Of a DNA stretch of 64,000 nucleotides, positions 6,247-52,940 are shown in pieces (the stretch's first letter is position 1; every line of letters begins with the position of its first letter). This stretch comes from Sphingobacterium thalpophilum (GTDB lineage: Bacteria > Bacteroidota > Bacteroidia > Sphingobacteriales > Sphingobacteriaceae), in assembly GCF_901482695.1 (NCBI RefSeq), contig NZ_LR590484.1:4712001-4776000 (forward strand), given 5' to 3'. The notes below the pieces were generated by a model. That model was given only the letters and a program-made list of their open reading frames with translations. It did not search any database and was not told the DNA's origin. The position numbers and the translations under genes are program-made.

Positions 6247-8845
6247 ATGCTTCCTGTTTGTTAATGAAGACAAATTTCCCATTGAAAACATCCAGCCGGA
6301 TGACCGAATCTCGGCTTACTTTCCCTGATAAGATCTCCTTGGAGAGCTCATTAAGGATACGTTTTTGAATCACACGTTTCAGCGGTCTTGCACCATATAC
6401 TGGATCATACCCTAGCTGGGCCAGCCAGTCCATGGCTTCATCGGATGCTGTGATAAAGATATTTTGTTCAGCCAGTTGTTTTTGAACATGGGCGAACTGC
6501 AGACGAACGATATCGCCGATTTCGTCCCTGCTCAGCGGTGTGAACATAATGACCTCATCGATACGGTTTAAGAACTCTGGACGGATCGACTGTTTGAGGA
6601 GTTCGAAAACTTCGTTGCGAGTTTTCGCAATGATTTCATCTTTATAGTCTTCCCGCAAATGACTGAAATTTTCCTGAATGACATGCGAGCCGGTATTGGA
6701 CGTCATAATAATAATCGTATTCTTGAAATTGACAGTACGCCCTTTGTTGTCTGTTAAATGTCCATCATCAAGTACCTGCAAAAGGATGTTAAATACATCT
6801 GGGTGGGCCTTTTCAATTTCATCCAATAGCACCACAGAATAGGGGCGTCTTCGGACAGCTTCAGTCAACTGACCGCCTTCATCATAACCAACATATCCGG
6901 GAGGCGCACCGATAAGGCGAGACACGGCATGTCTTTCTTGGTATTCGGACATATCGATACGCACCATCGACTGCTCGTCATCGAACAGAAATTCGGCAAG
7001 CGCTTTGGCGAGCTCTGTTTTTCCGACGCCTGTTGTTCCCAAAAATATAAAAGAACCGATAGGGCGCTTAGCGTCATTCAGGCCAGCTCTTGAACGGCGT
7101 ATTGCGTCAGAGATAGCTTCTATAGCTTCGTTCTGTCCTGCAACACGTTTGTGCAGTTCTTCTTCCAGATTAAGAAGCTTTTCACGTTCCGACTGGATCA
7201 TTTTGCTTACGGGTATGCCAGTCCATTTGGCCACTACATCGGCAATGTCCTCGGAGGTCACCTCTTCCTTCAGCATACGCTTGCTTTCCTGCTTTTCAGC
7301 AAGTTCGGCTTTTAGCCTTTCCACCTTCTCCTGCGCTTCTTTAATGCGTCCGTAACGCAGCTCAGCTACTTTTCCATAGTCGCCGGAGCGTTCCGCCTGT
7401 TCCGCTTCGAGCTTATAATTTTCAATATTTTCAATCTCTTGGTTGACATGGTCTACGAGATTTTTTTCTTCCTGCCATGAAGCACGCAAGGTATCACGTT
7501 CGGCCGACAGGTTGGCAATGCTTTCCGAGAGTTCCTGGACTTTTTTGTCGTCGTTTTCGCGTTTTAGGGCCTCCCGTTCAATCTCGAGTTGCATGATGCG
7601 GCGCTCCAGTTCGTCCACTGCCTCTGGCACAGAGTCCATTTCCAGACGCAGTTTTGACGCAGCTTCATCGATCAGGTCGATTGCTTTATCCGGTAAAAAG
7701 CGGTCCGAAATATAGCGTTGCGACAGTTCAACGGCAGCGATGATGGATTCATCCAGGATACGTACCTTATGATGGGTTTCATAGCGTTCTTTCAGTCCCC
7801 GAAGAATAGAGATCGCGTCCTGGGTGTCAGGTTCTTCGACCATGACCTTCTGAAACCGGCGTTCAAGCGCTTTGTCCTTTTCAAAGTATTTTTGGTATTC
7901 ATTTAATGTGGTGGCACCGATGGCACGCAGTTCGCCTCTGGCCAAGGCGGGTTTCAGAATATTAGCTGCGTCCATCGCGCCTTCGCCGCCTCCTGCACCG
8001 ACAAGGGTATGGATCTCATCAATAAACAGAATAATCTCGCCGTTGGAGTCAGTCACCTCCTTGACGACTGCTTTTAAACGTTCTTCGAACTCACCTTTAT
8101 ATTTGGCTCCAGCAATTAGGGCCCCCATATCCAGTGAAAACACAACTTTTGTCTTGAGATTTTCGGGAGCATCACCTTTGATGATCCGATAAGCAATACC
8201 TTCGGCAATAGCCGTCTTACCCACTCCGGGCTCACCGACAAGAATGGGGTTGTTTTTGGTACGTCGGGAGAGGATCTGCATGACGCGCCTGATTTCCTCA
8301 TCACGCCCAATGACAGGGTCGAGCTTGCCCGACTCGGCATACTCGTTCAGGTTACGGGCATATTTTCCCAGTGCATTATAGGTTGCCTCAGCATTTTGGT
8401 CCGTCACACGGCTGTTGCCCCGCAGTTCCTTGATCGCAGTCTTTAAATCCTTTTCGGTGACGCCCTGTGCTTTCAGTAAGCTTGACGTTTTGTCCGAAGT
8501 GGCCAGCATCCCCAAAAGCAGATGTTCGACAGATACAAATTCGTCGTTGAATTCTTTAAGATATCCTTGTGCTTTCTGCAAGGCAGTATTGGCATCGCTA
8601 CTCAAATAAATATTGCTACCGCTGACTTTCGGGAAACTCTCAATCTGCTTATCTAGTTCCGTTCCAAGATAAGTAATATTCACATTTAATTTCTTCAGAA
8701 GGTGGCTAACCACATTTTCGTCCACGGAAAGCAAAGCTTTTAGGATATGAGCAGTTTCGATCGCCTGCTGCTGATGACCAGCAGCAATTTCCGAAGCTTT
8801 TTGTATGGCCTCCTGGGCCTTAATGGTATAGTTATTAAAATTCAT
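6245..8845 (-). CDS. clpB: ATP-dependent disaggregase ClpB
   Basis: 866 aa, full length for ClpB. Order: N-terminal Clp repeat domain (about 1-145), AAA+ domain 1 with Walker A GEPGVGKT, coiled-coil middle domain (about 410-525) that separates ClpB from ClpA/ClpC, AAA+ domain 2 with Walker A GTTGVGKT, and the C-terminal small domain ([15 protein letters not shown]). It works with DnaK to resolve aggregates after heat stress. No CIRCE repeat is visible upstream, so HrcA control is not supported here. Confidence 0.98.
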
Positions 8846-9038
8846 CCGTAAAATATCTTAATTAAAGTTTGTTGATATGTTTTGTTATAACAATTGGGAT
8901 GCCATTCAGTTTTTGGGTGTTAATACGGAAAAAATGGCATTGAAATTTATTGTTTCATGACAAATTTTCAGGTTATAAAAATAATAATGCTGATTTTTAA
9001 CGATTTGAAAACCTGAGTGCAAAAATTGCGAGATGGGA

Positions 9039-9070
9039 TTTGGATTTTTGGTCTAAGCTTTCGATATTTG
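9039..9070 (+). promoter_or_regulatory. Likely promoter of the tRNA-Thr pair
   Basis: TTTG at 9039-9042 and GATATTTG at 9063-9070 fit the -33/-7 pattern with a 20-nt spacer. They lie about 47 bp before the first tRNA. The -7 element departs from consensus at its first two bases. Confidence 0.45.
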
Positions 9071-9116
9071 CAGCATCTTAAAAGCGGTAACGTTTTGAAG
9101 GTTGAAAAGAAGTAAC

Positions 9117-9189
<73 letters not shown>

Positions 9190-9222
9190 CATCGAGTAAT
9201 ACTCATTAAACTTCTTTAAAAA

Positions 9223-9295
<73 letters not shown>

Positions 9296-9300
9296 CAAAA

Positions 9301-9338
9301 AGACCCCCAAGATTCATCTCTTGGGGGTCTTTTTTTTA
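9301..9338. terminator. Bidirectional terminator after the tRNA-Thr genes
   Basis: Perfect 12-bp arms AGACCCCCAAGA (9301-9312) and TCTTGGGGGTCT (9319-9330) with a 6-nt loop, then a T run. An A run on the left allows it to end the alkaline phosphatase transcript as well. Confidence 0.93.
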
Positions 9339-10748
9339 ATCTAAACTGAGCTGCGCAGCTTTGGCGATTTTCTTAGGAATATCGGTATTGTCCATTTTGT
9401 GGTTGAATAGCTCAGCTCCGACACCGATCGCGTACACCGGGGCGTATGCCGCCGAGTGGTTATTGGAAGCCCAAGCGATAGAAGCCATTCTGTTCAGTAT
9501 AGCAATACTTAAAGCTGCAATCTTATCGTCATTGGCATACAGGCTCTTTGCTGTTTCATTCTGATGGTTAACAAAGCTCTTCTGATAAGCCTCTCGCAAT
9601 AGTTTATCATCGTTTTCATTGACCTTGATGCCAGTATATAGACCTGTGTGAGTAGCTAGCAACTGTTTGAGCTGCTCCCAAGTTACGTTAACTTTGCTGT
9701 TGCGGAGATCGCCTATCTGTGCTGAAAGTGCACTATGCGATACGCTTTGTTCCGAAAGCAACTTTGTTTTTAAAGTAGAACTTCCATTACCTATTCCAAG
9801 GCCGCCAGTTTCGTGGTCCGCTGTCACGACGATAAGGGTTTCCGTTGGATGTTTCTGGTAAAATTCGTAAGCCAGAGCTGCCGCCGCGTTAAAATCAAGT
9901 ACCTCCTGCACTGTAGTGGCTGCATCATTCGCGTGGCAGGCCCAGTCAATCTTACCGCCCTCCACCATCAGGAAAAAGCCTTTATCATTGTGATGTTGGA
10001 GCGACTGAATGGCCGCAGCGGTGATATCGGCCAGTCTGAGGTCGCCGGGCTGTTGATCAATAGCATATTTTAGTGCTTCTTTTGGGCTACCGTCAGTGTT
10101 CATCAGGATAATTTTATCGGACTTCTCTTTGTGCTTTAGATAAGCATCTTTTCCCTTTAGAATTTGGTAACCAGCGTTTTTAAGTTGTGGAAAAAGAGAA
10201 GGAGCCTGCTTGCCGTCAAACGTCATTTCGGGTTTTAAAAAGTTGGAGCCTGCAAAGAAATCAAAATTGGAACGGATAATTTCTTGTCCGATTTCATAGT
10301 ACATATCCCTGTCGGGCTGATGGGCATAAAAGGAAGCCGGCGTTGCATGGTCTATGCTCACACTGGTCACAATCCCGACTTTTAGTCCCCGTTCTTTGGC
10401 TGCATAGGCGATACTCTTGTAGGAAGTTGTTCCGCTACTGTCCATGCCGATAACGCCATTTTTGGTCTTTTTACCAACGGCCAGGGCGGTGCCGCCAGCG
10501 CCGGAATCGGTGACGCCGTTGGACAGTGAGTGCGTAGAGGCAAAACCCGTGTGCGGGAACTGCGTAAAGACCAACGGCACCGTACTGTTTTTGTTTTGAA
10601 TCGCTGCCTGATTGATCTCAGTAAGATTAACCTGATTGAAGCCCATTCCATCTCCAATCAGATAAAAGATATATTTCGCCTCTTGACAGAAGGCTGGGAA
10701 TACCTGAATAACCGCAAGGAAAAAAAGAAATAAAAAGTGTTTTTTCAT
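9336..10748 (-). CDS. Alkaline phosphatase, exported
   Basis: 470 aa from the ATG at 10748, which begins a signal peptide ending near PAFC. PhoA-family marks: metal ligand in LIGDGMGFNQ, nucleophile Ser in VTDSGAGGTA, ligands in MVEGGKIDWACHANDA, and TADHETGG. It hydrolyses phosphate monoesters in the periplasm to supply phosphate. The nucleophile loop reads DSG where E. coli has DSA, which is common in this subfamily. No Pho-box could be recognised upstream. Confidence 0.93.
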   Translation of the reverse strand: MKKHFLFLFFLAVIQVFPAFCQEAKYIFYLIGDGMGFNQVNLTEINQAAIQNKNSTVPLVFTQFPHTGFASTHSLSNGVTDSGAGGTALAVGKKTKNGVIGMDSSGTTSYKSIAYAAKERGLKVGIVTSVSIDHATPASFYAHQPDRDMYYEIGQEIIRSNFDFFAGSNFLKPEMTFDGKQAPSLFPQLKNAGYQILKGKDAYLKHKEKSDKIILMNTDGSPKEALKYAIDQQPGDLRLADITAAAIQSLQHHNDKGFFLMVEGGKIDWACHANDAATTVQEVLDFNAAAALAYEFYQKHPTETLIVVTADHETGGLGIGNGSSTLKTKLLSEQSVSHSALSAQIGDLRNSKVNVTWEQLKQLLATHTGLYTGIKVNENDDKLLREAYQKSFVNHQNETAKSLYANDDKIAALSIAILNRMASIAWASNNHSAAYAPVYAIGVGAELFNHKMDNTDIPKKIAKAAQLSLD

Positions 10749-15066: not shown

Positions 15067-15214
15067 AAGTGCTCAGGTGTGGGGAATTTTGTATATTTAT
15101 GCGGTTTATGTTAGTTTGTCGGGCTGTTTTATCTTCCAATGATAAGCAGGGCATCAAACTCAGAAGTAGCCATTATGGGACTAAGAAAAGTTATTGATAT
15201 TAAATGCACGAAAG

Positions 15215-15877
15215 ATGAATCAGTTTAAAATACTATTGGTTGAAGATCATATGGTTGTACGGAATGGTATTAAACTATTATTGGAGTCTCAGGAAGAATT
15301 TTTAGTTGTAGGTGAAGCTTCGGATGGGGATGAAGCGTTGCAGTTGATAGGGGATGGATTGTTGCCTGATATTATCTTGACGGATATCAGCATGGACAAT
15401 ATGGATGGCATGGAGCTGTTGCGGGCTGTTAAGCGGGAGTATGCTTCGATTAAGGTTGTTATCCTCTCTATGCTGAATCAGATTCACTACGTTGTTGAAG
15501 GGTTTGGCTACGGTCTTTCAGGATATTTATTGAAAAATGTGGATTATAATGAATTACTTTTTGGCTTGAAACATGTGGCGCAAGGAGGACAGTATATAAG
15601 TGCGGAGATCAGTATAGCTTTGTTGGACCATGTTGCCTCAGGTAAAAGCGGCCAGGTGCTTTCCAATCCGGCAATACCCGAATTGGAAATTAGTGAACGC
15701 GAGATGGAAGTCCTTAGGCTCATAGCAGATGGTTATACGAATGTGGAGATTGCCGACAAAATCTTTTTGAGCAAGCGAACGGTTGAAGGACATCGACAAA
15801 GTTTGATCGAAAAGACAAATGTCAAAAATACTGCTGAACTGGTCAAGGTGGCATTTCAATCCGGACTGCTGAAATAG
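15215..15877 (+). CDS. LuxR/NarL-family response regulator (orphan)
   Basis: 220 aa from the ATG at 15215. The receiver domain has the acidic pair ED (10-11), phospho-acceptor Asp57 in LTDIS, and the LSML and LLKN conserved sites. The C-terminal LuxR HTH is at EISEREMEVLRLIADGYTNVEIADKI. No kinase is adjacent: the gene sits between the arginase terminator and lgt. It is strikingly similar to the regulator at 46920-47576, with the same N-terminal stretch LLVEDHMVVRNGIKLLLESQ, so the two are paralogs. Confidence 0.9.
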   Translation: MNQFKILLVEDHMVVRNGIKLLLESQEEFLVVGEASDGDEALQLIGDGLLPDIILTDISMDNMDGMELLRAVKREYASIKVVILSMLNQIHYVVEGFGYGLSGYLLKNVDYNELLFGLKHVAQGGQYISAEISIALLDHVASGKSGQVLSNPAIPELEISEREMEVLRLIADGYTNVEIADKIFLSKRTVEGHRQSLIEKTNVKNTAELVKVAFQSGLLK

Positions 15878-40497: not shown

Positions 40498-40528
40498 TTT
40501 TAGTGGTACTTCAACACTACATCATATC

Positions 40529-40557
40529 TTGGTATCTCTCAAAAATCAATATATTTG
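40529..40557 (+). promoter_or_regulatory. Promoter of the PUL regulator
   Basis: TATATTTG (40550-40557) is an exact -7 element. TTGG at 40529-40532 is a partial -33 element with a 17-nt spacer. It leaves a leader of about 35 nt before the ATG at 40599. Confidence 0.55.
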
Positions 40558-40598
40558 GGGTACGTCAAGTTTACGTCAGCCAATTGAAGGGAATTATT

Positions 40599-43481
40599 AT
40601 GAAGTATTTTGTCATCCTTTTTTTCATCCTCTCGACTTTGTTTTCATGCCGGCTCTGGGGCCAGGATCTGCTTGGTCTTCCCCTTGTCTATAATTATGGT
40701 AAATCTGTCTATCAGGGAGGGAGCCGTACTTGGGATATTAAACAGGATAGTCACGGTATCATGTATTTTGGCAATAGTGAAGGTTTGCTTACCTTTGATG
40801 GAAGATATTGGAAGACTTTCCCTCTGCCCAATCATACGAACATCCGCTCGCTATGGGTGGATGACAACGATCGCATTTATGTTGGAGGGCAGGGTGATTT
40901 TGGGTACTTTGAGCGCTCGGCACAAATGGGGCTGAAGTATACTTCACTAAGACATTTGGTCCCTCAAAAGTATCGTAACTTTGCCGATATCTGGAATACG
41001 GTTGGGTTGGGGCAATCTATTTTTTTTCGGGGTACAGATGTTATTTTTGAATTAAAAGGGCAAACAATACAATGTCATCCTGCTGCTGCTGAATGGTTCT
41101 ATATCGGAAGGTCCGGAGACAGGTTATTTGCACAGGACAGGCAGCATGGTATTATGGAATACCATGAGAATAAATGGATTCCTTATCTGCCGGATCTACC
41201 GTTTAAAAATACTAAAATAGCATCTATATTACCTTCGACAGCTAACCGTATGCTATTGTCGACTTTAAATAATGAGAGCTATGCCCTTCAAAATGGAAAA
41301 TTAACTCCTCTCAATTTGTCGTCCTGGGATGGTAGTTATACACCATCCCTGGCGAAAATAGATGATTCTACCTTTGTATCCGGCAATGCGAAAGATGGTT
41401 GCCATATTCGAGATGTTCATGGCCATACCTTACAACGGATCGGTATTCGCGAAGGCCTGCACAACAAGAATGTCACAGCAGTCTTTGTCGACCGGCAAAA
41501 AAATATCTGGGTGGGGACAGATAACTTCATTTCCGTTATCAGCCATGGTAGTGCCATACGTTATTTCAGACCAAATTTGGAGAACGATGTGACTGGTTAT
41601 TCGTCACTGATTTTTAATCAACGGCTTTATCTTTCTTCTTCAAATGGCGTTTATCATGCAGCGATAGAACAGGGGATATCGGATCATAGCCGGTCTCCGG
41701 CCTCATTTTCGCTGCTCCAGCGGAGTGACGGGGGTGAGGCCTGGCGCCTCGAACAGCTTAATGGACGTCTGCTTTTGGGGCATAACAAAGGCCTTTTTGA
41801 GATCAGGGAAGGACATCTTCTACCGCTCTCACAGGACATAGGCACTTGGAGGCTTTTGCCCCTTAGCATGGTTTATCCTGTTGAAAATACATTGGTTGGC
41901 ACTTATCAAGGGCTGGGATTACTGGGGTTTAAAGAAGGAAATTTTTTTTCAAGTGGACTGTTGAAAGGATTGTCAGACTCATTTCGTTTTCTTGAACAGG
42001 ATGAACATGGAACAATTTGGGCTTCACATCCTTATAGAGGAATATATCGTATCCTGCTATCGTCGGACCGACGGTCGTATCATACCAAGCTTTATACAAA
42101 GAAGCATGGTCTGCCAGCCGACTACCAAAATTATGTATTCAAAGTTAAGAATCAAGTTGTGTTCGCGACCGAGAAAGGCCTATATCGATATGACTATGAC
42201 CAAGAGAAATTTGTGCCTGCGGAACACTTTGCCGCCTTTAAAAATTTGACGATACGGTATTTGCGGGATGATCAGGATGGTAATGTTTGGTTCTGCACAA
42301 AAAAAATGGTGGGCGTTGGGAAATTTGACTCCAAACGTGGAAATTACCAGCTGATTAATTTTCCCGAAATTGAAGGTATGAACACCTCCGGATTTGAACA
42401 TATTTATTGTTTTAATAGAAACAATATCTACATAGGTGCTGAAAAAGGCGTTATTCATATCAATTTTGATAAGTATATTAAACAGCCTTCTAAACCAGTG
42501 GCGATGTTGTCACGGGTCGTGGCGACCGGCAAGAAGGACAGTCTTATTTTTGCCGGCTACTTTTCGGAAGCGTTAACTACAAACGTAGAAAAATCTCCGG
42601 AACTGCCTTCTGAATTTAACGCTTTCCGATTTAATTTTTCTTCGCCGAGTTATGGGATTTATCAGCACCTGGAATTTAGTTATAAGCTTGTCGGTTATGA
42701 TGAGCAGTGGTCCTCCTGGTCGTCCCAATCTGATAAATCCTATACGAACTTACAGGAAGGTCAATATACGTTTCTACTCAAGGTGCGAAACAATCTGAAT
42801 CAGGAGTCAGCAGTTACATCTTACCGCTTTGTCGTACTACCACCATGGTACAAGACCATATGGGCAGAGATGCTGTACGGTCTACTTGCCGTTCTCTGTG
42901 TTATTGGACTTATGCGCTGGCAGCAACTACGGTGGACCAGACAACAACAGAAGCATGAGCAACAGATGGAACAGCTTCGTTACATCCATCAGCTGGAAAT
43001 AGAAAAAAATGAAAAAGAGATTGTGAAACTGAATAACGAGAGGCTGGCAAACGAAGTGATCAATAAAACCAAGGAATTGGCAAGTACCAGCATGCAGCTG
43101 CTTGAAAATTCAGGTGCCCTAATCAAAATCAGGGATGAGCTGGCAAAACTTGATACTGGAGATGACGAGGATTCTAATTTGAGGCGCATCAATAACCTGC
43201 TCAAAGATATTGATAAAAACAGTGCGAACTGGAATCAGTTTGCCTCTCATTTCGACGAACTCAACGACGGTTTTTTGAACAAATTAAAGGCGAGACATCC
43301 TGGCTTATCGCGAAATGATCTTAAAGTATGCGCTTACCTCAAGCTTCATTTTACTTCCAAACAGATTGCGCAATTGCAGAATATTACTGTCAGAGGAGTT
43401 GAGATCCACCGCTATAGACTTCGAAAGAAACTGCAGATCGGTACGGAACTGTCTTTAAGTGATTATCTGAACACCCTTTAA
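40599..43481 (+). CDS. Membrane-tethered sensor/transcription factor: propeller + Y_Y_Y + LuxR-type HTH
   Basis: 960 aa from the ATG at 40599, which opens a signal peptide (LFSCRLWGQ). The periplasmic part is a regulator propeller with repeats such as GTWRLLPLS and IWVGTDNF, then a Y_Y_Y domain (FSYKLVGYDEQWSSWS). One membrane segment at about 754-774 leads to a coiled coil and a C-terminal LuxR-like HTH (LKVCAYLKLHFTSKQIAQLQN, RGVEIHRYRLRKKL). No kinase or receiver domain is present, so ligand binding outside must act straight on the DNA-binding part. It is divergent from susC and is surely the PUL regulator. Confidence 0.92.
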   Translation: MKYFVILFFILSTLFSCRLWGQDLLGLPLVYNYGKSVYQGGSRTWDIKQDSHGIMYFGNSEGLLTFDGRYWKTFPLPNHTNIRSLWVDDNDRIYVGGQGDFGYFERSAQMGLKYTSLRHLVPQKYRNFADIWNTVGLGQSIFFRGTDVIFELKGQTIQCHPAAAEWFYIGRSGDRLFAQDRQHGIMEYHENKWIPYLPDLPFKNTKIASILPSTANRMLLSTLNNESYALQNGKLTPLNLSSWDGSYTPSLAKIDDSTFVSGNAKDGCHIRDVHGHTLQRIGIREGLHNKNVTAVFVDRQKNIWVGTDNFISVISHGSAIRYFRPNLENDVTGYSSLIFNQRLYLSSSNGVYHAAIEQGISDHSRSPASFSLLQRSDGGEAWRLEQLNGRLLLGHNKGLFEIREGHLLPLSQDIGTWRLLPLSMVYPVENTLVGTYQGLGLLGFKEGNFFSSGLLKGLSDSFRFLEQDEHGTIWASHPYRGIYRILLSSDRRSYHTKLYTKKHGLPADYQNYVFKVKNQVVFATEKGLYRYDYDQEKFVPAEHFAAFKNLTIRYLRDDQDGNVWFCTKKMVGVGKFDSKRGNYQLINFPEIEGMNTSGFEHIYCFNRNNIYIGAEKGVIHINFDKYIKQPSKPVAMLSRVVATGKKDSLIFAGYFSEALTTNVEKSPELPSEFNAFRFNFSSPSYGIYQHLEFSYKLVGYDEQWSSWSSQSDKSYTNLQEGQYTFLLKVRNNLNQESAVTSYRFVVLPPWYKTIWAEMLYGLLAVLCVIGLMRWQQLRWTRQQQKHEQQMEQLRYIHQLEIEKNEKEIVKLNNERLANEVINKTKELASTSMQLLENSGALIKIRDELAKLDTGDDEDSNLRRINNLLKDIDKNSANWNQFASHFDELNDGFLNKLKARHPGLSRNDLKVCAYLKLHFTSKQIAQLQNITVRGVEIHRYRLRKKLQIGTELSLSDYLNTL

Positions 43482-45348: not shown

Positions 45349-45855
45349 TTAGAATATGCTTTTTGAGTACGTCTTGAGTTGCTTCTGAAGGGATTTCCGG
45401 GCCATATGTATACGTGTTTTCACTGTTCCTTCCGGAATCTGCAAATGCTCGGCAATCTCATAGTATTTAAAACCTTCCAAAAACATTGCAAATGCGTTGT
45501 AGTGATCTTTAGGAAGACAATGGAGCGCATGTTGAATATCAGAAGCAACAAAATTGTTCTCACCTCTATTGCCGGTAATTTCGTTAGCATAGCCCATACT
45601 TATATATTCATTTCGGTAATTTTCCAGCCGTTTGTTGCGCGTATACTGATTGATATAGGTATTCTTCATGATGATATAAAGCCAGGACATCAATTTTGGG
45701 TGCTTCAAGAACTTTTCTATGGAAGATAGCGATCTCACCATGGTCTCCTGTACCAAGTCCTCTCTTTCGTCTGGATCATTGGTAAACTGCGCCGCTAAAT
45801 ATTTTAATGCAGGTCTTTTTTCTTTAAACAGTTGATCGATTGTGATATTTTCCAT
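45349..45855 (-). CDS. ECF-type RNA polymerase sigma factor (first of two paralogs)
   Basis: 168 aa. Region 2 has EREDLVQETMVRSL and HPKLMSWLYIIMKNTYINQY; region 4 has FKYYEIAEHLQIPEGTVKTRIHMARKSL. It closely resembles the sigma factor at 57872-58384 (shared HPKLMSWLY and EGTVKTRIHM, similar length). No anti-sigma gene with a FecR or zinc-binding domain is adjacent on either side, so control must come from elsewhere. An AT-rich leader of unusual structure precedes it. Confidence 0.92.
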   Translation of the reverse strand: MENITIDQLFKEKRPALKYLAAQFTNDPDEREDLVQETMVRSLSSIEKFLKHPKLMSWLYIIMKNTYINQYTRNKRLENYRNEYISMGYANEITGNRGENNFVASDIQHALHCLPKDHYNAFAMFLEGFKYYEIAEHLQIPEGTVKTRIHMARKSLQKQLKTYSKSIF

Positions 45856-46213: not shown

Positions 46214-46912
46214 ATGGGGGACGATAACAAAGGTATCTATATAGATCCGTCGCGGGCAGAACAGCGTCTGCAGGATACAAATCAACTATGGGAGGGAAGC
46301 CAGGAAGATTTTTATAAATCTATTATACGCAGTCAACAGGATGATCTGGGCCGGATAGGTCGTTACTTTCGTGATGAGCTTGCCCAAGAATTATACGGAA
46401 TGCGGATCTCATTGCAAAATTTTACCAATAGACATGGTGACTTTGAAGAATTACGTTGCCTTCGGGATGCGTTGACCACGCTCGTAATAGAACTGCGCAA
46501 CAAAGCTGTTTTACTGTATAATCCGATTTTGAATGATCTGGGGATCTTTCATGCAGTAGACGAGGTCGTGGCGTCTTACAAGCAGCGACTGGGTTTATCT
46601 ATTGATATCCTGCTTGATCCAAACCTTAAAGAAATGCCACATTATATGCAAGTTCATCTTTTCAAACTTCTGACTACATTGTTTGAATATCTGAAAGATG
46701 AACTTACCGTACAAGCCATTTCCTTATCGGTTCAGCTTATCGATTTTGCAGTCATTATCAAAGTACTTCCTTATTTTCGAAAGGATGGCTCAAGAGCTAG
46801 TGCCAAAACGAGTAGTTCTCCTTTGCGATTACGAAAAATCGCGGAGCTATACAGCGCAGATATCCTCAATGAAACGGTAGAAACAGGTATTTTATTGAAA
46901 TTAACGATTTAA
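46214..46912 (+). CDS. Histidine-kinase-like protein without phospho-acceptor His (pseudo-kinase)
   Basis: 232 aa, soluble. Residues 40-70 align with the HisKA_3 dimerisation helix of NarX/DesK-type kinases: DLGRIGRYFRDELAQELYG stands where RIARELHDxLGQxL is expected. The His is Arg53, with the following Asp kept. The later part (about 145-232) follows the ATPase domain layout, but the N box lacks its Asn and no G boxes are visible. It therefore cannot act as a normal kinase. It lies 7 bp before a LuxR response regulator and is probably its partner or inhibitor. Confidence 0.75.
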   Translation: MGDDNKGIYIDPSRAEQRLQDTNQLWEGSQEDFYKSIIRSQQDDLGRIGRYFRDELAQELYGMRISLQNFTNRHGDFEELRCLRDALTTLVIELRNKAVLLYNPILNDLGIFHAVDEVVASYKQRLGLSIDILLDPNLKEMPHYMQVHLFKLLTTLFEYLKDELTVQAISLSVQLIDFAVIIKVLPYFRKDGSRASAKTSSSPLRLRKIAELYSADILNETVETGILLKLTI

Positions 46913-46919
46913 AAAAACA

Positions 46920-47576
46920 ATGATAAAAATCTTATTGGTGGAGGACCACATGGTGGTACGTAACGGCATTAAGTTACTACTGGAATCGCAAGACGACTTT
47001 GAAGTAGTAGGAGAAGCGTCAAATGGTCGTGAAGCACTGAACTTCTTGTATACCCATACTTCTCCCGATATCGTTTTAACAGATATCAGTATGGAGGAGA
47101 TGGACGGCATGGAACTTTTGCAGCAGTTGAAAGAGGCTTATCCGGATGTCAAAGTCGTTATCCTATCTATGTTAAACCAAATTAACTATGTGATCGAGGC
47201 GTTTGAATATGGCCTTGCGGGATATTTGGTCAAGAATGTCGGTTATAACGAGCTACTATTTGCTTTGAAGCACATTGCCACCGGAGGGCGTTATATGAGT
47301 GAGGAGATTTCGATGTTGTTGCTAGAACAAGTGCGTTCAGGGCAAACGTATATACAATCATCTACGGTTTTACAAATGGACTTCGATATTTCCGAACGTG
47401 AACTGGAAGTTCTGAAATTAATTGCCGAAGGATACACGAATATAGAGATCGCCGATAAAATATTTTTGAGCAAGCGCACCGTCGAAGGACATCGCCAGAA
47501 TTTAATAGAAAAGGCTGGGGTGAAGAATACAGCACATTTGGTAAAATTTGCTTTTGAACACGGCATTTTAAATTAA
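46920..47576 (+). CDS. LuxR/NarL-family response regulator (pseudo-kinase partner)
   Basis: 218 aa. Receiver with acidic pair ED (8-9), phospho-acceptor Asp55 in LTDIS and the conserved Lys in LVKN; HTH at DISERELEVLKLIAEGYTNIEIADKIF. All phosphorylation residues are intact although the neighbour lacks kinase residues, so phosphate must come from another kinase or small donor. Paralog of the regulator at 15215-15877. The translated pair is tightly spaced (7 bp). Confidence 0.92.
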   Translation: MIKILLVEDHMVVRNGIKLLLESQDDFEVVGEASNGREALNFLYTHTSPDIVLTDISMEEMDGMELLQQLKEAYPDVKVVILSMLNQINYVIEAFEYGLAGYLVKNVGYNELLFALKHIATGGRYMSEEISMLLLEQVRSGQTYIQSSTVLQMDFDISERELEVLKLIAEGYTNIEIADKIFLSKRTVEGHRQNLIEKAGVKNTAHLVKFAFEHGILN

Positions 47577-47611: not shown

Positions 47612-47941
47612 CTACGTCAGTAGTTTGTTGCAGGCAATTGCACAAGCCTCACAGGCCTTGGCACAGGCCTGACAATGGATATTCTTGTGTTGGTAACATT
47701 CTGTTGCACAGTTGGAACAGATCTCAGCGCAAATGCTCAGCAGCTTCTTAGCATAGAAACTTTCCATGGACATCAATTGTGCGAGCATGGAACAAATGGT
47801 TGAACACTCCATACTCAGGGCAATGCATTGGGCCAGGACCGCGATATCTTTTTCCGCTGTGCATCTCATAACACAGTGCTGACACGCCGTTAAACACCTC
47901 CAGCAAGCTTCGATGCAATCCTGATGTAATTGTATATTCAT
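47612..47941 (-). CDS. Cys-rich four-helix-bundle copper-binding protein (DUF326/Csp-like)
   Basis: 109 aa with 18 Cys (about one in six), arranged along helices in CxxC and CxxxC patterns (ACWRCLTACQHC, CQACAKACEACAIAC). This matches the DUF326 copper storage proteins, whose four helices hold many Cu(I) ions in the core. No signal peptide, so it would store or buffer copper in the cytoplasm. It is next to an exported lipoprotein gene on the same strand. No copper exporter or regulator is adjacent. Confidence 0.88.
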   Translation of the reverse strand: MNIQLHQDCIEACWRCLTACQHCVMRCTAEKDIAVLAQCIALSMECSTICSMLAQLMSMESFYAKKLLSICAEICSNCATECYQHKNIHCQACAKACEACAIACNKLLT

Positions 47942-50768: not shown

Positions 50769-52940
50769 TTATAAGTCATTCAGCATATGATCCGGAAAAG
50801 GTTTGACGATAGGAAAGTAAAGGTGTACTATTGTGCCTTCGTTTACTTGGGAATTAATTTCTATACGTCCACCCAGCCGTTCCATGATGCGTTTGACAAG
50901 GGACAGACCGATTCCTGTTCCCTTTATATTACCCACATTATCGGCTCTCGAAAACATCTCATAGATATGTGGCAAATGTGCAGAAGGGATGCCGATGCCA
51001 TTATCAATAACACAGTAATGGGTGTGTTCATCCTCAAGGATACTTTCGATTCGGACAGTGGGATTGTCTGCCTGAGCTGAGTATTTAATGGCATTCACAA
51101 TCAGATTGGTGAATATTTGATAAACCGCACTTTTTTCACCCCACACTGGGAAGAGCTGTCCGAAAGATGGCTGACAATTGGTAGCGTTGTAAAGGATTTT
51201 GTTTTCCTGAAAAATCCGCTGAATGGTATATGAAAGTGGCAGAGGCTCCTTGTCCAGAGCATTGGCACGGTGCTGGCTGAGCTGGACCATATTGTTGATA
51301 ATGTCTTCAATATTACTGATGCTGCGATTAAAATTCTGATACCATTTATTGGATTTGGTCCTGTCCATATTGTCAGTATGCTGTTGCAAAAACTGTATAC
51401 CCATTTTCAGAATCGAGAGTGGATTTTTTAAATCATGTGATAGCGTATAGGTAAACATTTCCAGTTCGTTGTTTAAGCTGAGTAGCTCTTCATTAAGGAG
51501 CTGTCGCTCTTTAAGCTTTCTGAATATCGACTCTTTAATGATGTGGTTGAGTCGAAGCACAAAATTGATTTCGGCATCATTCCACGGTCTGGCTGTATCA
51601 TATTGGATATCTTCCGAAATTCTGAGCCCCTGACTGTCTTGCATTTTGAGTTGAATGACACGGCTCTCCTCTTCTTTTCTGAACCAGACCAGATAATAAT
51701 CATTTTCCAAACCTATTTTAAGGTACATTAGACCAGCAAAATTCAGTTTTTCACGAAACGTAGGCTGATGGTTTAGTCTGAAATTATAGTCTTTAAATAG
51801 TGCTTTATCTGTATGTTGCTGTAGGAAATGGACGATTTCATAAAATTGTGACTTCGGAGGTACCTGTCCGTAATGAAATACATCCCCTTGGTTGAAAATC
51901 GCCAGTCCGTCGGCATGAACAAGCTGGGTCAGGATATCCATATGCTGTACTAGTGCGCAGTTGACCATCATATTTTCTGACAGACTTTTCTTTAATTCAT
52001 CCTCAGCAATTTTGAGCAGCTCTGATCGCTCGAGTAGATTTTGTTTGATATGGCTTTCATACTTGCTAGCCGCTGCTTGTATCGCGAAAGCGCAGAGTTT
52101 ACGTTGTTGTAAGTCGATCTGTTTTTTCTTCGTATGCCGTGCGATGACCAGGCCCCAAAATTGCCCATCGATACAGATGCGGAAAAAGAGTGCACTTTTG
52201 GCATTGATCTGCTGGAGGAAAAGCTGATGGAGAGCGGGGATCGGCTGGAGCAAACTCGAAACTGTGTCTAGATCTTCTTCTATATAAATAAAGTTCTGTT
52301 GATTTTCGTCGATATGCGGGACATAGCGATAAGAATAAGCGCTGTAATATGCTATCACATCAGGAGGCATAAAATCACGGGAAAACGCCTTATTTCTATA
52401 GCAGGCAGTGCCGTCTGCTGTGTGTTCTGCAATGACTTTGCTGAAACCAGTTTCTTGGATCTGTAAAACGAAAACATGGTCGTAACCTAATAGTTTATTG
52501 ATTGCGAAACATACGCGCTCCCAGCTATCAGGATGAATTGTATCGAGCAGGAAGTTGAACTCGTTTATCTTTTTGGCTGATATGTATTTTTTATGTTGCC
52601 TTTCCCATTCAACATATAGAAAACTCTGATGGTTTCGAAATTTAAAATATAAACGTTCGCCATCTACCTTTAATGGTAAGATATGCCGAGACTGGCCGCT
52701 TTCACGGAACTCGTTAATAGCGTTTTGGATTTTTACAGCATTGTCACCAAATACATTTGAAAAACCAGCCAGGAACTTTCTGCCTAATAGCGCAGTACTA
52801 GCGAATTTTGTTTTCTTTGCCGCTTGGTCACTAACACCGACAATATGGTCATGTTGGTCTAAGACCAGGAGACAGCCGAAATGCTGAAGTTTGATGGTCT
52901 TAAGATCGCAAGTTTGAAAAATAGTCTCCATATTCGCCAA
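50769..52940 (-). CDS. Phytochrome-like sensor histidine kinase (PAS-GAF-PHY-HisKA-HATPase)
   Basis: 723 aa. Residues 1-120 match the phytochrome PAS_2 domain, with Cys11 (QTCDLKTIKLQHFG) in the place of the bilin-binding Cys of bacteriophytochromes. The GAF part has FMPPDVIAYY in place of PASDIP (its Asp kept), a His in PALHQLFLQQ matching the chromophore His, and GQFWGLVIARH. A PHY-like part follows, then HisKA with His in YTLSHDLKNPLS and the ATPase boxes NLIVNAIKYS, DNGIGIP, GTGIGLSLV. No membrane segment. No bilin-forming haem oxygenase or response regulator is adjacent, so real bilin binding is open. Confidence 0.88.
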   Translation of the reverse strand: MANMETIFQTCDLKTIKLQHFGCLLVLDQHDHIVGVSDQAAKKTKFASTALLGRKFLAGFSNVFGDNAVKIQNAINEFRESGQSRHILPLKVDGERLYFKFRNHQSFLYVEWERQHKKYISAKKINEFNFLLDTIHPDSWERVCFAINKLLGYDHVFVLQIQETGFSKVIAEHTADGTACYRNKAFSRDFMPPDVIAYYSAYSYRYVPHIDENQQNFIYIEEDLDTVSSLLQPIPALHQLFLQQINAKSALFFRICIDGQFWGLVIARHTKKKQIDLQQRKLCAFAIQAAASKYESHIKQNLLERSELLKIAEDELKKSLSENMMVNCALVQHMDILTQLVHADGLAIFNQGDVFHYGQVPPKSQFYEIVHFLQQHTDKALFKDYNFRLNHQPTFREKLNFAGLMYLKIGLENDYYLVWFRKEEESRVIQLKMQDSQGLRISEDIQYDTARPWNDAEINFVLRLNHIIKESIFRKLKERQLLNEELLSLNNELEMFTYTLSHDLKNPLSILKMGIQFLQQHTDNMDRTKSNKWYQNFNRSISNIEDIINNMVQLSQHRANALDKEPLPLSYTIQRIFQENKILYNATNCQPSFGQLFPVWGEKSAVYQIFTNLIVNAIKYSAQADNPTVRIESILEDEHTHYCVIDNGIGIPSAHLPHIYEMFSRADNVGNIKGTGIGLSLVKRIMERLGGRIEINSQVNEGTIVHLYFPIVKPFPDHMLNDL

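Follow-up and report, generated by a model that had tools for sequence, protein, structure and literature searches.

A HisKA_3-derived pseudokinase encoded beside an intact NarL/LuxR-type response regulator in Sphingobacterium

The gene pair and its surroundings

The window, i.e., the whole stretch of 64,000 nucleotides that was analysed, lies in a genome of 5.96 Mb assembled as one contig. It carries, on the + strand, a HisKA_3-derived pseudokinase gene (46214–46912; 232 aa) followed by the gene of an intact NarL/LuxR-type response regulator (46920–47576; 218 aa), the latter open reading frame starting 7 bases past the pseudokinase stop. The pseudokinase is a soluble protein with neither a PAS domain nor a transmembrane segment. 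A Pfam scan of the regulator matched Response_reg (3e-28) and GerE (3e-17). In agreement with the earlier note on this DNA, which had described a regulator with Asp55 and all receiver residues, the protein keeps the acidic pair (E8, D9), the Asp (D55; codon 47082–47084), the Ser (S83) and the Lys (K105) of a REC domain, together with the GerE helix-turn-helix. These receiver residues were intact in all complete regulator copies read at related loci.

An ECF sigma factor gene (45349–45855, − strand) is divergent from the pair and syntenic at most related loci. About 3.2 kb past the regulator lies the gene of a phytochrome-like HisKA kinase (50769–52940, − strand), a candidate phosphate donor whose H, N and G boxes are intact but whose bilin motif is degraded. 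At 15194–15877 (+ strand) lies the gene of an orphan response regulator that shares 68% identity with the partner of the pseudokinase; its receiver is intact and no kinase adjoins it. Two other neighbours were observed. A 992-aa protein (40503–43481) has Reg_prop-sensor-like repeats and a LuxR-like C-terminal helix-turn-helix, with no kinase domain seen, and its gene adjoins that of a SusC-like transporter. A small Cys-rich protein resembling copper-binding Csp/DUF326 proteins is encoded at 47612–47941, convergent with the regulator, and only some of the ortholog loci have one.

Loss of catalytic residues and descent of the pseudokinase

The DHp helix of the pseudokinase reads IGRYFRDELAQELYGMRISLQNF. 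Alignment with kinases from related loci placed its Arg53 (codon CGT, 46370–46372) opposite the His of HDSVAQ/HDSIAQ-type H boxes, and the structural register with DesK placed it at the phospho-acceptor His188; both bear out the earlier view of a kinase-like protein with a recognisable dimerisation helix and Arg in place of the His. Arg53 was present in 22/22 close orthologs, the window protein included, which rules out an isolated mutation as well as an error of sequencing; the gene pair was likewise kept across the clade, in line with the conservation checks proposed in the earlier note. Immediately downstream, Asp54-x-x-x-Gln58 (46373–46387) corresponds to the HisKA_3 DxxxQ phosphatase motif as defined in the literature (PMC3510030, PMC5231405), with the acidic residue at H+1 and the Gln at H+5 of DHp helix 1. 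The ATP boxes, as had been noted, are all absent in the alignment: the N box (NNxxKH) is replaced by EYLKDE, G1 (DNGxGF) by LPYFRKD and G2 (GTGL) by SPLRL.

This degree of decay was reflected in the database searches. A single-sequence Pfam scan of the pseudokinase returned zero families even at an E value of 10, hence no HATPase_c match, and a PDB sequence search with the same single sequence gave no match. NCBIfam gave a weak match to the MctS sensor histidine kinase (E 8e-7, residues 27–152), far under the model cut-off. When 28 relatives were scanned against Pfam with E up to 1, HisKA_3 was matched in just 6 and HATPase_c in 6. A family profile, by contrast with the single sequence, picked up VraS and DesK chains among the PDB sequences without recourse to structure. 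Since the single-sequence Pfam and PDB searches were empty, recognising the relation to kinases required relatives and a profile. The earlier note had named the lack of any relation to histidine kinases as refuting its reading; intermediates, the family profile and the fold establish this relation.

The AlphaFold2 model, built on the alignment of 28 intact and decayed sequences (A3; pLDDT 76.6), comprised helices 30–74 and 78–101, which form the DHp part (residues 30–101; 46301–46516), and then a CA-type alpha/beta domain (residues 103–232; 46520–46909). Its best structural matches were the CA domain of VraS (4gt8; Z 12.0, 121 residues, 3.3 A) and DesK (e.g., 5iul; Z 11.4), with residues 20–232 of the model on residues 155–367 of DesK. 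With an offset of 135, R53 corresponds to His188, D54 to Asp189 and Q58 to Gln193 of DesK. Foldseek TM-scores against whole kinases were low (0.3–0.4) and the whole-chain rmsd was large because the DHp–CA angle differs; the Z scores show that the match holds per domain. The earlier note had held that a normal ATP-binding site in a predicted structure would speak against its reading; the model predicts a CA fold with no ATP-binding boxes left. The claim of missing ATPase boxes is therefore refined: the boxes are gone, yet the HATPase_c fold itself is kept in degenerate form.

When 400 genomes of the family were searched, close orthologs (65–74% identity, all within Sphingobacterium) turned up in 22 genomes including that of the window, alongside more distant forms. 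Most of the loci read have the same order, with the divergent ECF sigma factor followed by the kinase-like gene and the regulator. At 12 loci (group A) the kinase-like gene encodes a normal HisKA_3–HATPase kinase that is about 360 residues long, has HDSxAQ, NNxxKH, DNGxGF and GxGL and carries a PAS-like part at its N-terminus, where "PAS" was assigned to N-terminal parts by reading the sequences and not by profile search. The proteins of a further six loci (group B) are catalytically intact too. The single group C protein (L078) has kept the His and lost the ATP boxes, and the nine group D proteins have kept the N-terminal part but carry Arg instead of the His and lack ATP boxes. Group E comprises proteins of 204–218 residues without ATP boxes, in which the His position is occupied by His (L068, L102, L103, L105), Arg (L084, L086) or Asn (L067). 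The window protein and its close orthologs make up group F and are short, with Arg and no ATP boxes; these proteins align with canonical kinases almost without gaps across the whole CA domain, and the ATPase fold is therefore degenerate rather than absent. By sequence and locus, the window protein descends from HisKA_3 kinases. As a side observation, the five proteins with the His kept and the ATP boxes lost (L068, L078, L102, L103 and L105) may represent intermediates that act in phosphotransfer, like Spo0B/ChpT, or as phosphatases.

Because the regulators show no decay, losses were counted on a tree built from them. This tree supported the F clade (100/100), B + C + D (91/83) and B + D (93/82), and rebuilding it without outgroups gave the same grouping (B + D, 88/74). 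The fewest changes of the His amounted to four (F, D, L084/L086 and L067). A single origin of the Arg in F and D was not rejected on this tree (AU p 0.18), and our claim is accordingly at least three losses of the His, not four. For the ATPase, unordered parsimony gave two changes but required its regain in group B, which we regard as implausible; replacement of the locus by transfer may also have occurred. If regain is impossible, the ATPase would have been lost four times or more on the best tree (E, C, D and F), subject to topology. The occurrence of L102, L103 and L105 (His, no ATPase) beside L084 and L086 (Arg, no ATPase) suggests that the ATPase was lost first and the His later.

Despite this decay, the pseudokinase gene is under purifying selection. 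The median dN/dS, calculated from 21 aligned ortholog sequences over unsaturated pairs, was 0.08 for the whole gene, 0.03 for helix 1, 0.11 for helix 2, 0.12 for the CA remnant and 0.39 for the 28-residue N-terminus; these values are rough, synonymous sites being near-saturated in most pairs and only 29/210 pairs usable for the whole gene. The pN/pS over all pairs agreed with this pattern (helix 1, 0.075), and the regulator gave a dN/dS of 0.05 in the same ortholog set. R53, D54 and Q58 were invariant in the 21 aligned orthologs. Across alignment A3 the invariant residues were G49, A57, Q58, L60, Y61, Q68, G75, L101, G110 and A114, with Gln58 the sole residue of known catalytic role kept throughout. 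The low dN/dS of the whole gene, and of helix 1 in particular, indicates that the gene is not junk, and very probably the pseudokinase has a conserved function and is not a relic. Taken together, the window protein is almost certainly a HisKA_3 kinase descendant that has become a pseudokinase. It has the features of a bacterial pseudo-histidine kinase, namely a kept fold, lost catalytic residues and purifying selection; judging from its residues, the usual ATP binding and autophosphorylation are beyond its predicted reach.

Function of the pseudokinase and source of phosphate

The earlier note had offered a phosphatase-like, sequestering or scaffold role for this protein. The retention of Gln58 and Asp54 favours the phosphatase-like option, although sequence alone leaves the choice unsettled. 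The best explanation is a pseudokinase of the phosphatase type, or at the least one that binds the regulator, and we put the chance that the window protein is a phosphatase-type pseudokinase acting on the LuxR regulator at about even. Such a protein would still form a DHp dimer and dock the regulator, with Asp54 and Gln58 positioning the attacking water as in HisKA_3 kinases when these dephosphorylate regulators. It would bind the phosphorylated regulator encoded next door, and perhaps also the orphan paralogs of this regulator, and strip off the phosphate, serving as a dedicated off-switch without a sensor domain of its own; any regulation would therefore act via its expression or via partners. 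The DesK H188V variant is kinase-dead with normal phosphatase activity toward the phosphorylated regulator, and Gln193 positions the attacking water (PMC5231405). For the phosphatase activity of NarX, the His proved nonessential (PMC5231405), and DxxxQ, which is conserved in HisKA_3 proteins, is required (PMC3510030).

Several observations count against a phosphatase. G49, L60, Y61 and Q68 of the DHp part are conserved as strongly as Q58, whose conservation could stem from docking alone. In part of the other decayed lineages Glu or Asn takes the place of Asp54, and the Asp189–Arg84 salt bridge of DesK has no counterpart in the window regulator. The window protein keeps the CA fold without ATP boxes, and there are kinases whose phosphatase activity depends on nucleotide. 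Furthermore, the ChrS pseudokinase of C. glutamicum, in which the CA domain is truncated, appeared to lose phosphatase activity (PMC9491836). A less likely but realistic alternative is that the protein is a non-catalytic partner that sequesters the regulator, or that it acts on another kinase by mixed dimerisation or allosteric tuning, in the manner of DivL, RocA and the ChrS frameshift. Kinase-dead precedents exist in DivL and in the ChrS frameshift pseudokinase, whose presence raises cross-phosphorylation by HrrS (PMC9491836), as well as in RocA–CovS (PMC7028121). Constraint in the window protein peaks at the DHp docking helix, and the protein has neither a sensor domain nor a nucleotide site. 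However, none of the decayed lineages has changed the catalytic Gln of the phosphatase motif though every kinase residue is gone, and pure docking needs no specific Gln. In addition, the genome search found no HisKA_3 paralog near enough for obvious heterodimers, the best HisKA_3 relatives being about 30% identical to an intact kinase of this locus.

If the window protein acts as a phosphatase, the phosphate on the regulator would be supplied from elsewhere, and the earlier suggestion of another kinase as the source is plausible, with a linked candidate now found. Seven HisKA_3 kinases over the Pfam cut-off are encoded in the genome, all away from the pair; six directly adjoin a LuxR regulator, and the seventh (at 1503249) lies about 2.6 kb from the nearest LuxR-type regulator. 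On this basis, a full kinase paralog that serves the window regulator was rejected among these seven.

Linkage and kinase competence instead make the phytochrome-like HisKA kinase at 50769–52940 the best donor candidate, with acetyl phosphate as an alternative source. Its HisKA and HATPase boxes are intact, and its ortholog lies within the 6-kb flanks at 18/20 of the other F loci; of the two exceptions, one ends at a contig edge and in the other (genome G017) the ortholog is about 340 kb away. Absence of this kinase from G017 was thus ruled out, a broken copy 16 kb from the pair being a different paralog. The latter (L223; G017 665500–672500) is split over two frames, shares about 34% identity with the window copy over the kinase part and looks like a broken paralog. 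In group E, orthologs lie beside the pair at about 0.4 kb (L084, L086, L102 and L105) or 1.7 kb (L103), and in four D genomes they lie 8–11 kb away. The linked copies of F, D and most of E form one clade (99 SH-aLRT) that has lost the DIP bilin motif; the linked copies of group B belong to another clade with DIP kept, and the kinases adjoining the pair in L067 and L068 come from a different part of the tree. No linked copy was found in one D genome (G308), the C genome (G001) and most A genomes. There are just 1–4 phytochrome-like proteins per genome. In the window copy and those of L047–L066, DIP is changed to FMP and there is no canonical chromophore Cys motif, with the kinase boxes intact; these proteins are probably not red-light sensors. 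Part of the linkage is explained by shared ancestry of the region. It also counts against this kinase as donor that its ortholog is unlinked in G017 and that phosphate flow from a HisKA phytochrome to a NarL-type regulator would be out of the ordinary. We propose only tentatively that the linked kinase may donate phosphate to the regulator.

The regulator itself belongs to an expanded family. The window genome encodes four further members (68, 53, 48 and 47% identical) with intact receivers, none of them with a directly adjoining kinase; 4–6 copies were found in the six F genomes examined and 1–2 in the other groups. The 68% copy (15194–15877) was an orphan in four other F genomes read, too. 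A second orphan of the family (53%; L178, 4107–4760) lies 2.7 kb from another phytochrome-like kinase, which keeps DIP (7431–9611), an association not seen in the other genomes examined. It is possible that several of these regulators share one pseudokinase. The growth of the family and its members without adjoining kinases, together with a long stem branch of the regulator (about 1 change per site), are also what might be expected if the regulator were in practice phosphate-independent and the pseudokinase a relic or a phosphorylation-independent binding partner. This is unlikely: every member read has kept the catalytic residues of the receiver, and purifying selection acts on the pseudokinase, so that neither half looks relict.

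It is highly improbable that a new phospho-acceptor such as H113 relays phosphate received from a separate kinase, as in Spo0B or ChpT, whose CA domain is likewise degenerate: H113 is invariant among the aligned close orthologs and both proteins are structural matches of the model, yet H113 is limited to the window clade and lies off the DHp acceptor turn, no receiver-bearing donor kinase is linked, and Arg53 replaces the canonical DHp His that Spo0B and ChpT retain.

Returning to the phosphatase-type pseudokinase, a broader scenario that we regard as rather doubtful would be that, within one genus, the kinase was repeatedly stripped from a bifunctional HisKA_3 form to a sensor-less phosphatase dedicated to its intact regulator, while the input moved to the linked phytochrome-like HisKA kinase without a bilin motif. 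In the clade of the window this would have been accompanied by duplication of the regulator into orphans sharing one pseudokinase.

Significance and comparison with known systems

A single sensor usually unites kinase and phosphatase activity, which makes the two difficult to tell apart. At this one locus, related species carry intact kinases, ATPase-less forms with the His and ATPase-less forms without it, with the regulator intact throughout. Such a series allows one to ask which residues the kinase needs, as opposed to those for the phosphatase or docking, and how a two-component pathway rewires after the death of its kinase. It also illustrates that what looks like a two-component pair may lack a kinase, and that proteins of this sort can escape single-sequence profile searches entirely. 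Bacterial pseudo-histidine kinases are already known, and the added value here is the graded natural series at one locus. Within the limited literature covered, our search found neither a natural stand-alone HisKA_3 phosphatase nor a description of this Sphingobacterium system.

Among auxiliary phosphatases of the CheZ/CheX type, acidic and amide residues similarly position the water, and DxxxQ occurs in CheZ (PMC3510030); their folds are unrelated, however, and they act on CheY, not on a DNA-binding regulator. DivL of Caulobacter and RocA of group A Streptococcus are pseudo-histidine kinases conserved for non-kinase roles, but the targets described for them are other kinases (CckA and CovS, respectively), whereas the window pseudokinase is encoded with its own regulator. 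In fold and register the protein resembles DesK, which shares the DHp and CA domains and the exact correspondence of R53/H188, D54/D189 and Q58/Q193, and whose H188V form has phosphatase but no kinase activity (PMC5231405). DesK has a membrane sensor, ATP binding and the His; the window protein has neither a sensor nor an ATP site, and its Arg is natural. NarX, ChrS and other HisKA_3 kinases with the phosphatase Gln resemble the window protein in DxxxQ (NarX) and in a NarL/LuxR-type regulator partner, but these are bifunctional kinases, in contrast to a protein without kinase residues. The laboratory-evolved ChrS-Ala245fs of Corynebacterium glutamicum is likewise a sensor kinase that is kinase-dead, while its regulator is intact and fed by a different kinase (PMC9491836). 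That case, however, concerns one laboratory strain in which the CA domain is truncated, the His is kept and the phosphatase is apparently lost, whereas the window protein is natural and clade-wide and keeps both the CA fold and DxxxQ, with input from another kinase only proposed here.
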